Virus record (IMG/VR): IMGVR_UViG_3300049793_000106
Coordinates: 1-38,451 of that record
Strand: one strand, 5' to 3'
DNA from: a virus
DNA length: 38,451 bases
Each line of letters begins with the position of its first letter. The stretch's first letter is position 1. Both the position numbers and the translations under genes were made by a program. This document shows, in pieces, positions 3,056-17,285 of this stretch. The notes beneath the pieces were generated by a model. The model searched no databases, had not been told where the DNA came from, and saw only the letters and a program-made list of their open reading frames with translations.

Positions 3056-3790
3056 ATGGGCGCACCACAAAAGAACTTCCGTCGTCGTGTCAACACGATG
3101 GAGGAAATGATGCGAAAGCATCATCAGACCGACCACTCTCTCTCAGAGCTCGCAGGTACGACATACCAGAACGTCAACCGCCACAAGCTCGGCCGCGCCA
3201 TACCGAGCCTCGATCTCGCGTACGCATATGCGGTGCACTTAAAGACGACCGTCGAGGACCTGTTCTTCCCCGGTGGCGGGTTTTCGTGGGCCGGCGACAG
3301 TGATGCTCCGTCCGCCGCTCCCTGCACCGTAGGACGACACGTCGCCAACACAAGAAGCACAGCGACTGTGCAGCCCCGCGTCATCGTGACTCCGCTGTAT
3401 CGACCACAGGTGCCTCCGCGCGATAACACGCCACCATCCATCACTGACCCCTGCTCCAAGTGCGGCGCCTCGCTCTCCACGGGGCACGACCGCGCAACCA
3501 GGCCGGCACCGCACCCCAATGACTGGCGGCGCAAACTCCAGGAAGACGAGATCGCGCTACTGCTGCGCATCTTCGAGACTCCCCAGAGCAATAAAAGCCG
3601 CGTCGCTGATAGCATCCGAGACCTCCAGATGACCAAGAAACGCGCATTCAGCATTCTCGGCGCGTGGGCGGACTGGGGCTGGTATGACCCGGGCTCGAGC
3701 ATCATCTCGGGTTCGTTGACACAAAAAGGAATCGAGACAGCGCGTTCGATGAAGTCGCGCCCTGTTTGCAACAAGGTGGGGGCAGCATGA
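3056..3790 (+). CDS. HTH DNA-binding protein, 244 aa
   Basis: Residues about 14-70 look like a Cro/C1-type helix-turn-helix: SLSELAGTTYQNVNRHKLG, then a DLAYAYAVHLKTTVEDLF segment typical of the XRE fold. The middle has a CSKCG pair within a proline-rich linker. The last ~75 residues are a second helical, winged-helix-like domain ending in a strand pair (GSLTQKGIETA). It could be a late-gene regulator. Its place before HNH and TerL also leaves a small-terminase role open, but no typical TerS signature is seen. The ATG is 5 nt after the preceding tiny ORF, and the stop overlaps the HNH start. Confidence 0.7.
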   Translation: MGAPQKNFRRRVNTMEEMMRKHHQTDHSLSELAGTTYQNVNRHKLGRAIPSLDLAYAYAVHLKTTVEDLFFPGGGFSWAGDSDAPSAAPCTVGRHVANTRSTATVQPRVIVTPLYRPQVPPRDNTPPSITDPCSKCGASLSTGHDRATRPAPHPNDWRRKLQEDEIALLLRIFETPQSNKSRVADSIRDLQMTKKRAFSILGAWADWGWYDPGSSIISGSLTQKGIETARSMKSRPVCNKVGAA

Positions 3791-4188
3791 CGCGCCACGG
3801 CCAAGTCACCCACATGACCATTCCCAAGCGCCGAAACGCAGAGGGGATGCCGCTGTGCCGAATCTGCGGGATCGTCGTGCAGTACCCCCGGCGCAGCTTT
3901 TGCAGCGACAAATGCTCGTGGATCTACTACCGCGTCACGCATTGGGGCACGATCGTTTCGACCGTAAGGAGGCGCTTTGGCCGGCAGCCCCGCTGCGCGG
4001 TCTGTGGCCCCGGACGTGTCAGGGAACACCTTCGCGAGCGACATGTGTCGTGGGAAGTCGACCACATCGTAGAACTCGCGGACGGAGGCGACTGGTGGGC
4101 AGCCTGGAACCTGCAACTGCTGTGCGCCCCGTGCCATGCTGAGAAGTCAGCGGCATCGCGTCGTGCGCGCCGGCAGGTGGCAGCATGA
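3787..4188 (+). CDS. HNH endonuclease next to terminase
   Basis: The 133-aa protein has an N-terminal zinc knuckle (C24, C27, C39, C43) and a C-terminal HNH nuclease core: CAVCG (C70, C73), VDHIVELADGG with Asp92-His93, NLQLLC with Asn108, and CxxCH (C113, C116, H117). This beta-beta-alpha metal fold cuts DNA. HNH proteins directly upstream of the large terminase are known to take part in cos cleavage and packaging in several phages, so a packaging role is likely here and homing is the alternative. A strong ribosome binding site (AAGGTGGGGG) precedes the ATG, which overlaps the upstream stop. Confidence 0.85.
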   Translation: MTRHGQVTHMTIPKRRNAEGMPLCRICGIVVQYPRRSFCSDKCSWIYYRVTHWGTIVSTVRRRFGRQPRCAVCGPGRVREHLRERHVSWEVDHIVELADGGDWWAAWNLQLLCAPCHAEKSAASRRARRQVAA

Positions 4189-4358
4189 GAAGGCGCCGCA
4201 CCGGCTGGCGCTTCAAGAAGACGTATCACAGCCGCGTGGTACCGATTTTGCTCCCAGACGGTCGCGAGTTGCGCATGCTCGACCCGCGCATGTACTCCGC
4301 AATGCGCGGCGCACAGACGCGAGCAGAACTCGCCCGCAACCTGAGAGTTGTGCGGTGA
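4185..4358 (+). CDS. Small basic protein, 57 aa
   Basis: The ATG overlaps the HNH gene stop (ATGA), and the TGA at 4356-4358 overlaps the GTG of the terminase gene (GTGA). The 57 residues start with MRRRRTGWRFKK and remain Arg-rich throughout, with a central PILLPDGRELRMLD segment. The size and charge fit a small DNA-binding accessory protein. No family is recognised. The double coupling to HNH and TerL supports that it is translated. Confidence 0.6.
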   Translation: MRRRRTGWRFKKTYHSRVVPILLPDGRELRMLDPRMYSAMRGAQTRAELARNLRVVR

Positions 4359-7300
4359 ACAACGAACACCCCAATGCGCTCGCGCGTTCCTTGCGCCGCA
4401 TCATCGACCAGCCGCCGATTGAGCAGCGTCCGTCAACTGCGCCTCCGAAGGTGGAGTGGAAAGAAGACCCGACCACCGGCGATCTTGCGCCGTTTGTCGG
4501 GGATCTTGCTGTCGGATGGGCGCCAATGCCCGGCAGTCAGGAAGCGTACCTGTCGTGCCCGGTGTTTGAAGTTTTGTATCACGGAACCAGGGGTCCGGGT
4601 AAGCGGATAGCAAACTCCACCCCTGTGCTGACTAACCGCGGCTGGGTCGCGGCCGGCGATGTCGTGATGGCGGATAAGTTGGTAGCGCTCGACGGGTCTT
4701 ACACTAGAATTGTCGACATCTTCCCATGTGCAAACCGTGAATTGTTTCGGGTAGTGTTTCACGACGGCGCCGAAATACTCGCGGACGCGGAACACCGCTG
4801 GCTAGTGCTCAATGGGAAAACTGGATATCGCGAAGGCTGGAAGGTTAGAACTACCGAACAAATTCGAAAAGCATCCGTTCCGTACTCAGTACCATTCATG
4901 CAGGGCCCCCTTCCCGGAAAGAAATGGGACGGCGTCGATCCATACATGGTTGGCCTGCTCCTGGGAGACGGGACAATGCGGTCGAAGCAGGTAACGCTAT
5001 ACAGCGCTGACGACCAAATCCTCGAGTATGCCGCGTCCCTTGGGTGGCTGCGTTACAAGTACGAGGGGCAGTGTGGCAGGGCCACGTGCCCCTCGAGCAG
5101 TTGTGAACAGTGGCGACGACTGCTTCCGCGACACATGTCCGGCGACAAACGGGTTCCTCGCGCACTTATGGAAGCGGACCCTTCCACACGCCTACTGGTT
5201 CTTCAGGGGCTGATGGATTCGGACGGCTCCGCAGAGACGTGCGGAAAGCAGAGATTCGTGTCCAAGTCCGAAAAACTCGCCCGAGATGTCGCAGCACTGG
5301 TGTGGTCACTCGGCGGCGTTGCGACGGTCTACAAAGAGGATCGTTTTTCACCAAAAGGCGGCGTCCACTGGAGGTGGCGAGTAACGCTTCGCCACAATAA
5401 TAAGTTCAACCCGTTTCGACTTAGCCGAAAAGCGAACCGCATGGTTGAGCAGAAAAAGTTCCTGACTCGCGGAATCAAATCTATCGAACCGGCCGGAGTA
5501 GGTGACGGGGTATGCTTTGCGGTAGCGCACAAGTCACACTGTTTTGTAATTGACAAGTTCGTAGTCACACACAACTCCACGGCGGGCCTCATAGACTTTG
5601 GCCAACACGTTGGAAAAGGATTCGGCACACACTGGCAAGGCATTGTGTTCCGCCGCACATACCCGGAACTAGAAGACATCATTGACCAGGCGAAGCGGTG
5701 GTTCCCACGCGTGTGGCCGAACTCGGGCTATCACGCGACGAAACATCAATGGGAGTGGGCGACCGGCGAGAAGTTGATGTTTCGTCATGCGGATCGCGAA
5801 AGCGATTATTGGTCATATCATGGTAGAAATATCGGATTTTTTCTGTGGGAAGAATTGACGACATGGCCGAATCTTAACCTCTACAAAGCTATGATGTCGA
5901 TTTGCCGATCACCAATTGCGGCAATTCCGAAAAAATATCGCTCGACAACAAATCCTTACGGTATCGGGCACGGCGCCGTTCGTAACCACTTCAAACTCGG
6001 CAGTCTCGATCCAGCGACCAAGCGCGCAAAAGACGAAGCAGAAAAAGCGAAGACACGCGTCGATTCGCGCAAGCTACCGACTGTCGGACCAATCTATACC
6101 GACGACAACGGCCAGCAGAGAGTCGCGATCCGCGGGCACATCTACGAAAACAAGATTTTGCTGCATTCTGATCCCGGATATATCGCACGCCTGACCAACT
6201 CGGCGCCCAACCCGGCAGCACTGATGGCGTGGCTCGAGGGCGACTGGGACGTTGTTGCGGGCGGCATGTTTGATGACGTGTGGGTGCCGTCTGTGCATGT
6301 AGTGCCCGATATCCCGGGGCCACAGATTCCCAAGGGGTGGAACGTGTCGCGCGCCTACGATCACGGCCAGAGCAAGCCATTCAGCGTCGGGTGGTGGGCA
6401 TGCAGTGACGGAACACCGGCGGTTGTCGAAGTGCCTGTCCTCACGCCCGAAGGTATAGAAATGCGCAAGCGCACTGTGGGCGAAGTCAGGGGAGACGTGG
6501 TGCGCCTGACGGAATGGTATGGGTGTCGTGAAGGCGAGCACAACGTTGGGCTCAACATGACAGCCGTGGAAATTGGCGCCGGTATTCGAGAGCGCGAAGA
6601 CCGACACTTCACTCGGCACGGGATCAAGGTACATCAAGGGCCGGCAGATAATTCGGTCTTTGACGCAAACAGTTCGGGCACCGGCACGGTAGCACGGGAC
6701 ATGGCACGCCCGCCGGCTCGCGTTACGTGGTCCCGGTCTGATAAAGGACCGGGATCAAGGATTCAGGGCTGGCAGCAGATTCGGAAGATGCTCAAAGCAG
6801 CGCTCTCAAAGCCCGCCGAGATGGGCGACGGAGTACCCCCTATTCTTGTAGACGTTCGCGGAAACCCGCTCGCGTCACGCGACCCCGCCCTGTTCATTTG
6901 CCAAAACAACGAAGCCTGGATTCGCACAGTGCCCACCCTCCCGCGTGACAAGAAAGACACGGACGATGTAGACACGAACAGCGAAGACCACTGCCTCGCA
7001 TATGGAACCGTGGTGAATACCCCGCAAGGTTCTCGGACGATAGGGTTTCTTGCCGAACACGTCCCGAACGGTACAATCTACTCTGCTGATGGAAAGGAAC
7101 ACACGTACCACAATGCGCGTCGGACGAGACGAGACGCACCCACTGTTCGCGTGTTCTTTGCCAACGGAAAAACACTTCGCTGCACTCCAGATCACCGCGT
7201 GATGCTGGAGGATGGAATCTGGTGTGAAGCACAATACTTGCACGGCCTTACGTGCTATTCGGTGAACACATGGCCCACGTCGTCACAGTCATCAGCCCCA

Positions 7301-8023
7301 CAATCCAGGAGTATGGCGGGGAACGCTACTACCTTTGCGGGCGGTACTTCCAGAGAAAAGGTAAAGGACGACTGCACGTCAAAGTCTGGGTTGACCGGCA
7401 CGGCACGAATGTTCCGGAGAATCACGAGATTCACCACAAAGACCATGACCGGAGCAATAATCAACCAGACAACTTGGAGTGCCTCCATGAGACGGAACAT
7501 GGCAAGCATCACGGGTCCGAGTCGGGTGAACGCGGGAAACAGTACCTTCCCGCCGCACAGGTGGCAGCGGCCCGATGGCACGGAAGTCGTGTCGGTCGAA
7601 AATGGCACCGGGAACACTACGGCCGAATCAAGGACGTCCTGCATAAGCGCACCGAACGCACCTGCGGGCGTTGCGGCAAGTCCTTTCAGGGGCTCGAGTT
7701 TTCCAAGTGGTGCAGCAACACATGCAAGAGTTCGGCGCGACGCGCTTCAGGAGTGGATAGGGTCGAACGTACTTGCGCCCATTGCGGGAATGTTTTTTGG
7801 GTCGATCGGTACCGCCGAACGCCAACCTGTTCCCGGCAGTGTGGTCGCGGACTGGCGCGCAGTGCGGATAGAGGAAGCGGGACCTCTTGACGTCTATTGT
7901 CTGAGTGTTCCCAGCACGGGAAACTTCGCGGTCAATGGCGGGCTCATTGTAAAGAACTGTGGTGACGAAACACGTTATCATTTGAGGCGTCGCAAAGCAG
8001 AGATCCGAAACGAGGAATTTTGA
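4355..8023 (+). CDS. terL: Terminase large subunit precursor with two inteins
   Basis: The 1222-aa precursor packages DNA into proheads by ATP hydrolysis and cuts the concatemer. The ATPase P-loop GTRGPGK (77-83) is interrupted by intein 1 (84-407) and resumes with STAGL. Walker B is FFLWEE (about 495-500). The C-terminal RNase H-like nuclease shows AYDHG (Asp669), PADNSVFD (Asp765/Asp770) and, split by intein 2 (880-1201), DTNSEDH then CGDETRYH. After splicing the enzyme would be 83+472+21 = 576 aa, a normal TerL length, with an uninterrupted GTRGPGKST loop. The GTG start overlaps the upstream stop, and the end overlaps the portal ATG (TGATG). Confidence 0.93.
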   Translation: MNNEHPNALARSLRRIIDQPPIEQRPSTAPPKVEWKEDPTTGDLAPFVGDLAVGWAPMPGSQEAYLSCPVFEVLYHGTRGPGKRIANSTPVLTNRGWVAAGDVVMADKLVALDGSYTRIVDIFPCANRELFRVVFHDGAEILADAEHRWLVLNGKTGYREGWKVRTTEQIRKASVPYSVPFMQGPLPGKKWDGVDPYMVGLLLGDGTMRSKQVTLYSADDQILEYAASLGWLRYKYEGQCGRATCPSSSCEQWRRLLPRHMSGDKRVPRALMEADPSTRLLVLQGLMDSDGSAETCGKQRFVSKSEKLARDVAALVWSLGGVATVYKEDRFSPKGGVHWRWRVTLRHNNKFNPFRLSRKANRMVEQKKFLTRGIKSIEPAGVGDGVCFAVAHKSHCFVIDKFVVTHNSTAGLIDFGQHVGKGFGTHWQGIVFRRTYPELEDIIDQAKRWFPRVWPNSGYHATKHQWEWATGEKLMFRHADRESDYWSYHGRNIGFFLWEELTTWPNLNLYKAMMSICRSPIAAIPKKYRSTTNPYGIGHGAVRNHFKLGSLDPATKRAKDEAEKAKTRVDSRKLPTVGPIYTDDNGQQRVAIRGHIYENKILLHSDPGYIARLTNSAPNPAALMAWLEGDWDVVAGGMFDDVWVPSVHVVPDIPGPQIPKGWNVSRAYDHGQSKPFSVGWWACSDGTPAVVEVPVLTPEGIEMRKRTVGEVRGDVVRLTEWYGCREGEHNVGLNMTAVEIGAGIREREDRHFTRHGIKVHQGPADNSVFDANSSGTGTVARDMARPPARVTWSRSDKGPGSRIQGWQQIRKMLKAALSKPAEMGDGVPPILVDVRGNPLASRDPALFICQNNEAWIRTVPTLPRDKKDTDDVDTNSEDHCLAYGTVVNTPQGSRTIGFLAEHVPNGTIYSADGKEHTYHNARRTRRDAPTVRVFFANGKTLRCTPDHRVMLEDGIWCEAQYLHGLTCYSVNTWPTSSQSSAPQSRSMAGNATTFAGGTSREKVKDDCTSKSGLTGTARMFRRITRFTTKTMTGAIINQTTWSASMRRNMASITGPSRVNAGNSTFPPHRWQRPDGTEVVSVENGTGNTTAESRTSCISAPNAPAGVAASPFRGSSFPSGAATHARVRRDALQEWIGSNVLAPIAGMFFGSIGTAERQPVPGSVVADWRAVRIEEAGPLDVYCLSVPSTGNFAVNGGLIVKNCGDETRYHLRRRKAEIRNEEF
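4604..5575 (+). mobile_element. Intein 1 in TerL Walker A loop, LAGLIDADG, class 3-like
   Basis: This 324-residue intein lies between Lys83 (GPGK) and Ser408 (STAGL). The N-terminal block reads RIANSTPVLT with Arg where Cys, Ser or Ala is usual. Block B has AEHRW (His64, Trp66), block F has GVCFAV (Cys304), and the end is VVTHN (Thr322, His323, Asn324) followed by Ser+1. Trp, Cys and Thr at these places with no N-terminal nucleophile match the published WCT hallmark of class 3 inteins, where the block F Cys makes the first attack. Two LAGLIDADG motifs are present: MVGLLLGDG (115-123) and LQGLMDSDG (200-208), so a homing endonuclease is built in. Confidence 0.9.
6992..7957 (+). mobile_element. 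Intein 2 at TerL nuclease site, hosting a nested HNH gene
   Basis: This 322-residue intein sits between DTNSEDH and CGDETRYH of the nuclease domain. Block A is CLAYGTVVNTPQG (Cys1), block B is CTPDHRVML (Thr65, His68), block F is DVYCLSVPSTGNF, and the end is GGLIVKN with Cys+1. The penultimate residue is Lys, not the usual His. Residues about 93-300 in this frame are low-information Ser/Thr/Arg-rich sequence with no nuclease motif, because the same DNA encodes an HNH endonuclease in another frame (7270-7890). The frame is nevertheless free of stops throughout, as splicing requires. Confidence 0.88.
7270..7890 (+). CDS. HNH homing endonuclease nested out of frame in intein 2
   Basis: This 206-aa ORF lies wholly inside intein 2 but in a different reading frame from terL. 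It reads like a complete free-standing phage HNH enzyme: ISPTIQEYGGERYYLCGRYF start, a core with NHEIHHKDHDRSNNQPDNLE and EHGKHHG, a middle WHGS/KWHREHYG segment, and two C-terminal zinc knuckles, CGRCGKSF with WCSNTCK and CAHCGNVF with TCSRQCG. The ATG at 7270 has a weak GGTGA 4 nt upstream; a GTG at 7252 is an alternative. The full domain order without truncation argues for a real, intact gene and against two chance frameshifts. Confidence 0.8.
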   Translation: MAHVVTVISPTIQEYGGERYYLCGRYFQRKGKGRLHVKVWVDRHGTNVPENHEIHHKDHDRSNNQPDNLECLHETEHGKHHGSESGERGKQYLPAAQVAAARWHGSRVGRKWHREHYGRIKDVLHKRTERTCGRCGKSFQGLEFSKWCSNTCKSSARRASGVDRVERTCAHCGNVFWVDRYRRTPTCSRQCGRGLARSADRGSGTS

Positions 8024-16760: not shown

Positions 16761-17285
16761 TTGTGGACGGCCAGTTGTCAGAACAAGGGCTACGGGCAAA
16801 TTCGCAGAGCCCTACCTGACGGCACCGTAACCAGGAGCCTTGCCCATCGTGCGTCGTACGAGACACGCGTAGGCCCTATTCCAAGCGGAATGGACGTTCT
16901 GCACAATTGCGACACTCCGCGGTGCTGCAACGAACTTCACTTATTTCTCGGCACGCACGCGGACAATATGCACGACATGGCTACCAAGGGTCGCCATTTT
17001 TCCGTCACGAAGCCGGGGAGGGTTGCGCGCGGGGACCGACACGGAACCCACACAAAGCCGGAGCGCCGGGCCACTGGCGACCGAAGCGTGATGCGTAAAC
17101 ACCCAGAAATGATTCTCCGTGGCGTGCACAACGGCAATTCTAAATTCTCAGAAGACGTCGTTGACGCTGTCCGATCAGACCTCGCAATTCCCTTGAAACA
17201 GCGAGACATCGCGGCCAAACACGGGATCAGCCAATCCCAAGTCAGCAATATCAATCGCGGCTTGCAACGTTCTCAAACTTCGTAA
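16761..17285 (+). CDS. Free-standing HNH endonuclease with HTH tail; start uncertain
   Basis: The protein has an HNH core (LAHRASYETRVGPIPSGMDVLHNCD, CCNELHLFLGTHADNMHDMATKGR) and a C-terminal helix-turn-helix (KQRDIAAKHGISQSQVSNINRG), like NUMOD-type free-standing homing enzymes. The TTG at 16761 is used, but the same frame is open upstream to 16680. There it reads LTERLEEKIDRSGGPGACHLW, the usual N-terminus of this family, without any ATG, GTG or TTG. A strong GAGGAG site at 16719-16724 is followed by a TTG at 16729 that is out of frame. So either a non-standard start (ATT 16728) is used or a frameshift has hit the gene or the assembly. It sits between two structural genes. Confidence 0.78.
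   Translation: MWTASCQNKGYGQIRRALPDGTVTRSLAHRASYETRVGPIPSGMDVLHNCDTPRCCNELHLFLGTHADNMHDMATKGRHFSVTKPGRVARGDRHGTHTKPERRATGDRSVMRKHPEMILRGVHNGNSKFSEDVVDAVRSDLAIPLKQRDIAAKHGISQSQVSNINRGLQRSQTS

Follow-up and report, generated by a model that had tools for sequence, protein, structure and literature searches.

Organization of the terL locus

The stretch of viral DNA analyzed here (IMG/VR record IMGVR_UViG_3300049793_000106, 38,451 nucleotides (nt), hereafter the window) contains a gene for the terminase large subunit, terL, whose open reading frame (ORF) includes two inteins. The second of these, intein 2, holds between its splicing motifs a complete HNH endonuclease gene that is read in a different frame from terL (Table 1). 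The TerL extein part at 5576–6991 matched TerL in 614 phage records (best ~45% identity), and the insertion site of intein 2, between EDH and CGDETRY, is a conserved TerL position shared by most homologues; it lies close to the 3' end of the gene, ~65 nt upstream of the stop codon.

Table 1. Features of terL, intein 2 and the nested HNH gene in the window.
Feature	Position	Strand	Remarks
terL ORF, terminase large subunit, two inteins	4136–8023	+	Open end to end; start codon placement approximate
Intein 2, 322 aa (amino acids), class 1 type (Cys1 ... Asn322, Cys+1)	6992–7957	+	Motifs and Pfam/NCBIfam matches
N-terminal splicing half of intein 2, residues 1–90, Cys1 and block B CTPDHR	6992–7261	+	AlphaFold2 predicted local distance difference test (pLDDT) ~97
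Possible Shine-Dalgarno site GGTGA, separated from ATG 7270 by 4 nt	7261–7265	+	Short match, weak alone
Intein-frame spacer, about residues 91–288, HNH gene DNA read in the terL frame	7262–7855	+	pLDDT ~50 over most
Gene for the HNH endonuclease nested in intein 2, 206 aa, read in frame +2 with respect to terL	7270–7890	+	HHKD 7432–7443; zinc motifs 7663–7725 and 7774–7842
C-terminal splicing half of intein 2, residues 289–322, blocks F and G, terminal Asn	7856–7957	+	pLDDT 93–98 from ~residue 291

All motifs of intein 2 were found in the terL frame: Cys1 at 6992, block B, block F (VYCLSVPSTGNF) and IVKN ending at 7957, followed by Cys+1 at 7958. In this frame, Pfam Intein_splicing matched with an E-value of 1e-6, below Pfam's own cut-off, and NCBIfam gave TIGR01445 intein_Nterm (3.6e-7) and TIGR01443 intein_Cterm (0.004). 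With a Cys/Ser nucleophile, a TxxH block B, a C-terminal Asn and Cys/Ser/Thr at +1, intein 2 appears by its sequence to be a class 1 intein. An AlphaFold2 model built with 46 intein-frame sequences predicted that the N- and C-terminal halves form a HINT fold together, and Foldseek matched this model best to the Npu DnaE intein (E=1.7e-5) and also to RecA and DnaB inteins. No Pfam or NCBIfam domain of its own was detected in the spacer between the two halves, which bears out the statement of an earlier sequence-only reading of the window that the terL frame has no nuclease motif across the HNH DNA.

HNH genes are frequent in phage group I introns, which would speak for a link of the HNH insert to such an intron. 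An Rfam search of the window gave no match to an intron or other RNA, and the protein-splicing motifs are intact, the intein fold is predicted with confidence and the host frame is open, all of which makes this origin extremely improbable.

The HNH gene starts with ATG at 7270 (alternatively GTG at 7252) and ends with TGA at 7888–7890. Its product matched Pfam HNH_3 (E=7.8e-12) and PHROG 15471 'HNH endonuclease' (E=2.9e-46), and was modeled by AlphaFold2 with a mean pLDDT of 95.4. H55, H56, D58, N64, N68 and H77 are invariant or nearly so in the family, as are the eight cysteines of two C-terminal zinc motifs (C132/C135/C148/C152 and C169/C172/C187/C191). An HNH domain, a conserved His/Asn core and a DNA-binding appendage are the hallmark of HNH homing endonucleases, and the protein is probably one of them. 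The third forward frame over this region has stops, including TGA at 7263. The intein 2 blocks, the HNH gene with its HHKD core and zinc motifs, the stops of the third frame and the family assignments of both translations thus all agree with the sequence-only reading.

The same reading had called the 3' end truly dual-coding. An overlap does exist, although it involves only a 15-residue HNH tail and the first C-intein strand; the wording is too strong because the last residue of the HNH core, Cys191, lies at 7842, and the C-intein is folded with confidence only from near residue 289 (7856). In fact, the folded parts scarcely overlap at either end, with the N-intein ending at ~7261 and the HNH gene starting at 7270, and with the last zinc cysteine at 7840–7842 and the C-intein fold beginning at ~7856.

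Recurrence of the nested arrangement

Two sets of homologous loci were assembled. The first came from an HNH-only alignment search and from phage and plasmid records and contained 97 HNH loci, 63 of which had N- and C-intein blocks in a single TerL ORF and the HNH in another frame (frame +2 in 56 loci and frame +1 in 7, never in frame; the frame +1 loci are L039, L045, L047, L052, L076, L080 and L096). The second consisted of loci picked by the intein N-block regardless of HNH, and shared four contigs with the first. Here, 73 of 80 loci had an out-of-frame HNH (some matches being partial) and the remaining seven were mini-inteins; no in-frame HNH and no in-frame endonuclease-sized insert was seen in the inteins of this set. 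Neither outcome that would count against the sequence-only reading was found; in particular, the classified loci contained no homologue with an in-frame HNH. The arrangement is not confined to the window but forms a widespread class. The nested HNHs formed 116 clusters at 80% identity, indicating that the loci are not copies of one sequence. They are related, however, and the counts given here are not independent trials.

Splicing residues were almost invariant among 121 nested loci: Cys1 was present in 120, the terminal Asn in 119, and Cys or Ser at +1 in 119. The HNH stop codon lay at a median of 19 codons upstream of the intein end in these loci, which means that the HNH tail usually extends into the C-intein block. 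One genome-contig scan added two loci, including L097 from a metagenome-assembled genome of Gammaproteobacteria, which has the nested arrangement; another genome-contig scan gave nothing. An archaeal example, L016, was found in Halobacterium plasmid pGSL19_54.9, which is probably proviral; its nested form is annotated only as 'Hint domain-containing protein'.

Avoidance of stop codons in the intein frame

One explanation of the open terL frame is chance in a G+C-rich sequence, in which case the intein would be dead or irrelevant and the HNH gene would merely have landed in terL. The expected number of stops was obtained by shuffling synonymous codons within the HNH gene, leaving the protein and its codon usage unchanged. 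For the window this gave only 0.3 stops, and other long spurious ORFs occur in this G+C-rich sequence. The window alone therefore proves nothing in this regard, and the evidence against chance comes from homologues. No stops were observed in the intein frame of the 56 frame +2 loci against 109.9 expected, and none in 61 loci of the second set with longer HNH matches (including L097) against 110.7, so that two differently selected sets gave the same result; the frame was open even in loci of 30–35% G+C. The third frame of the 56 loci contained 923 stops (994 expected), free-standing HNH genes contained 124 (119 expected) and relatives in which the intein is split contained 59 (56 expected). With the controls normal, the avoidance of stops is thus specific to the intein frame and to loci whose intein is continuous. 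Together with the near-invariant catalytic residues of the intein, this refutes chance at the level of the family, and we regard it as a very improbable account of the window.

Additional support for selection on the open frame comes from the 7 frame +1 loci (0 stops against 67.5 expected), because far more stops are expected there by chance. Shuffled genes had ~2 stops per gene in the frame +2 arrangement but ~18 in the alternative one, which is consistent with most loci being in frame +2; inheritance of an old phase may contribute.

Further analysis of close nested pairs showed that third positions of HNH codons change more than first and second positions; in the +2 phase, these third positions serve as second positions of intein codons. 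The HNH protein is therefore constrained, and the spacer peptide shows no sign of conservation beyond stop avoidance. The proposal of the sequence-only reading that both frames were kept open holds, with the correction that the spacer is constrained mainly to lack stops and is not a second conserved protein.

Evidence for mobility

Acinetobacter phage Highwayman (OZ038341) carries a 981-nt intein with a nested HNH as an insertion in terL. The N-extein of this gene was 80–99% identical in 41 other Acinetobacter phage records, and DNA similar to the Highwayman intein was present in 0 of these 41 relatives. Three of them (Acba_21, MRABphi22 and Brutus) were inspected directly and had an uninterrupted 1302-bp (base pair) terL. 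Between Highwayman and Acba_21, the first ~1000 nt of terL are free of mismatches, 8 fall in the 200 nt upstream of the insertion site and 7 in the 50 nt downstream; the 1200 nt of the portal gene that follow again have none. The +1 residue was Leu in the intein-free alleles, which share local sequence, and Cys in Highwayman. Presence and absence in near-identical alleles with divergent flanks is the co-conversion pattern expected of homing, and by this sequence comparison the converted tract also supplied the Cys+1 nucleophile needed for splicing. Acinetobacter phage BP10 was considered as another empty-site partner of Highwayman and rejected because its TerL is too divergent. Besides, no close terL relatives of TJE1 and LS06 were found in the phage collection beyond these two themselves.

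The nested HNH is the only endonuclease recognized in the Highwayman intein. It may nevertheless no longer drive homing, being instead a passenger or having another role, for example in phage competition or packaging, with the intein spread by another nuclease. Such a role is made conceivable by free-standing relatives that persist beside terL without an intein, and by HNH proteins that can assist terminases (PMC11855218). Against it, co-conversion in Highwayman surrounds exactly the unit of intein plus nested HNH, the catalytic and zinc residues of the HNH are invariant or nearly so, and these inteins show no in-frame insert of endonuclease size that could take its place. We consider this reading unlikely, though it is the most credible of the alternatives examined.

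A comparison of nested and mini-inteins points to the unit that is gained or lost. The flanking DNA of L119 was 85–87% identical to that of mini-inteins L143 and L144, and the difference was a 522-nt HNH-containing segment, with the L119/L143 junction determined from blastn and the raw sequence. The start and stop codons of the L119 HNH sit in intein sequence, outside the 522-nt segment.

Translation of the nested HNH

Shine-Dalgarno matches of at least 4 nt preceded 52% of nested HNH starts (25% in shuffles), and matches of at least 6 nt preceded 19% (4% in shuffles). Part of this signal can stem from conserved intein Gly-Asp codons (GGTGAT); when only the GGAG/GAGG/AGGA core was counted, the values were 33% against 19% and 10% against 3%. 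Strong sites were found in L020 (AAGGAGGT), L023 (AAGGAGG) and L059 (GGAGGTG). In four loci (L040, L085, L089 and L065), a sequence such as TGATATAAT just before the HNH start resembles an extended -10 promoter, yet encodes the conserved intein Gly-Asp.

Internal initiation of the HNH is likely. A ribosomal frameshift out of the intein frame, which would yield an N-intein–HNH fusion, could account for the roughly half of loci that lack a clear Shine-Dalgarno site and for the HNH frame often being open some way upstream of the start. It does not explain why nested HNH genes have start codons, several of them with the strong sites mentioned above, or why their free-standing relatives are ordinary separate genes; moreover, phases +2 and +1 both occur and would require opposite shifts. 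A frameshift is therefore improbable in our view, and internal initiation is preferred.

Free-standing and split relatives

In the HNH tree, the window protein was sister (support 99/94) to free-standing HNH genes of Pseudomonas phages PAE1 and FBPa53 and Sphaerotilus phage SN1. These genes are located directly downstream of terL, close to the position of the intein site. State labels switch repeatedly along the tree, whose root and direction are unfixed: the nested +2 state needs 16 changes, at least 7 of which are forced by well-supported branches. The sister relationship and the stop avoidance confined to the intein frame support the proposal, made from the window sequence, that a once free-standing HNH gene entered an intein and that both frames were kept open.

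In addition, 11 loci were split into an N-intein ORF, an HNH gene and a C-intein ORF, and the start of the C-fragment often overlapped the HNH end. These candidate native split TerL inteins are L007 (with an HNH remnant), L015, L022, L024, L026, L030, L035, L038, L049, L067 and L075. L015 is Lactobacillus phage CL2, whose C-piece is unannotated; Brochothrix phage BL3, with a remnant HNH, is likewise among the 11.

Comparison with known systems

Homing endonuclease genes between the halves of split inteins were reportedly described as fractured genes by Dassa and colleagues in 2009. As proposed for the window, an independently translated homing endonuclease gene lies there between N- and C-intein parts, and our 11 split relatives resemble this organization. 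In fractured genes, however, the host gene is split, whereas the window and the nested majority keep N- and C-intein in one ORF running through the nuclease gene; the window element is thus not a split intein. Free-standing HNH genes beside terL (PHROG 15471; PAE1, FBPa53 and SN1) belong to the same HNH family, being 52–54% identical to the window protein, but lie outside inteins and have stops in their other frames.

Canonical endonuclease-containing inteins, including those of mycobacteriophage TerL, share with the window class 1 blocks, conserved TerL sites and a nuclease between blocks B and F, as well as homing, which is proposed for the window. Mycobacteriophage TerL inteins carry in-frame LAGLIDADG domains (Kelley et al. 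2016, PMC5050341). The window differs from them in having a separate HNH protein encoded in frame +2, and is not a canonical endonuclease-containing intein.

The closest precedent, though not an intein, is the ShiLan element, an out-of-frame HNH in a mycobacteriophage DNA methylase without splicing motifs (Arsenault, Gosselin and Gogarten 2025, PMC11855218). Its authors consider it retained in the methylase and propose an internal translation start (PMC11855218). ShiLan and the window have in common a zinc-finger HNH gene in another frame of the host gene and a stop-free host frame; ShiLan also shares with the nested family a disjunct, mobile distribution and the proposed internal start. It differs in its methylase host and in having no splicing domain, whereas in the window both intein halves flank the HNH, the host gene encodes the essential TerL, and over 100 loci share the arrangement. 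In the literature covered here, we found no description of an intein whose homing nuclease is read out of frame; findings in a 2025 preprint about actinobacteriophage inteins of 'non-canonical architecture' may overlap. The sequence-only reading needs correcting in that intein-less out-of-frame HNH insertions have already been published (PMC11855218).

A model for the nested element

We place the probability at roughly 0.87 that the nested intein and HNH form one homing element, in which an HNH protein with its own start drives homing and the intein keeps TerL functional. Such an element would consist of two genes on one stretch of DNA, the outer one, read with terL, being an intein of class 1. 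The whole TerL precursor would be translated, and its N- and C-intein halves would join into one fold and excise themselves so that TerL is left intact. The HNH gene, which occupies the usual position of an in-frame endonuclease but uses another frame and its own start and stop, would be expressed separately by internal initiation on the terL transcript. Its product may cut intein-free terL alleles in phages that infect the same cell, within or close to the insertion site, and repair would copy intein and HNH jointly, along with neighboring parts of terL. Translated with terL, the HNH DNA would give a ~200-residue unstructured spacer. Because this spacer would be lost with the intein, the terL frame would place no strong constraint on the HNH gene other than the absence of stop codons. 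The sequences themselves show the architecture and its recurrence, the avoidance of stops in that frame only, constraint on the HNH frame and, in a relative, one recent insertion accompanied by co-conversion; protein splicing, internal translation, cleavage specificity and the part of the nested HNH in that insertion are inferred from them.

Several observations weigh against this interpretation. The penultimate residue of the window intein is Lys and not His, and Lys occurs in 4 of 121 nested loci. The open terL frame of the window is by itself compatible with chance. The best PDB match of the HNH model in Foldseek, I-HmuI, was weak (E=0.45), and a PDB sequence search with the HNH protein found none. 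Shine-Dalgarno enrichment was moderate, at about 2-fold or more over shuffles, and some half of the loci lack a clear site. The Highwayman tract reveals conversion, but not the nuclease that initiated it. Finally, no close relative of the window was found, either in an HNH scan of viral contigs (none confirmed) or by tblastn of the intein-frame protein in phages, and the evidence for mobility and constraint therefore comes from relatives and not from the window itself.

More tentatively, and with somewhat less than an even chance of being right, we suggest that an out-of-frame nuclease is the stable and usual way in which this TerL intein family carries its homing endonuclease, and also a gateway from mini-intein through nested to split forms. 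Mini-inteins might gain mobility by taking in a neighboring free-standing HNH gene without fusion. A stop codon in the spacer and a start before the C-intein could then convert a nested element into a native split intein that encloses a nuclease gene; a single stop and start would suffice, since the nuclease is already a self-contained gene with start and stop codons.

The nested arrangement recurs in more than a hundred other phage sequences and carries signs of transfer between phages, which makes it a common way to build a mobile intein, though one that seems to have drawn little notice. In the prevailing view, the endonuclease of an intein is an in-frame domain, and surveys restricted to the host frame would call such elements mini-inteins with odd linkers or miss the nuclease. 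If the design is common, it would change estimates of which inteins are mobile and provide many natural cases of overlapping genes in which the overlap has an evident reason, namely that a disposable spacer must avoid stops. It would also offer a path, open to testing, by which a free-standing nuclease becomes nested and the intein then splits. Matched mini, nested and split TerL inteins may also be a source of splicing domains that tolerate ~200-residue spacers.

Neighboring elements in the window

Intein 1 of the same terL (324 aa, 4604–5575, + strand) is a neighboring element outside the nested unit and is located in the P-loop (GTRGPGK/R...THN/STAG). It has Arg at position 1 and apparent Trp, Cys and Thr positions (HRW, VCFAV and VVTHN), resembling a class 3 intein, and carries a LAGLIDADG_3 domain in frame. 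Thus, one terL appears to contain two inteins which differ both in class and in nuclease arrangement. Two other HNH genes are present in the window. A small one (PF01844, E=5.6e-7) at 3766–4188 is directly upstream and overlaps the start of the terL ORF, and a free-standing HNH_3 gene (E=2.1e-9) at 16761–17285, in the tail gene region, probably encodes another homing endonuclease.

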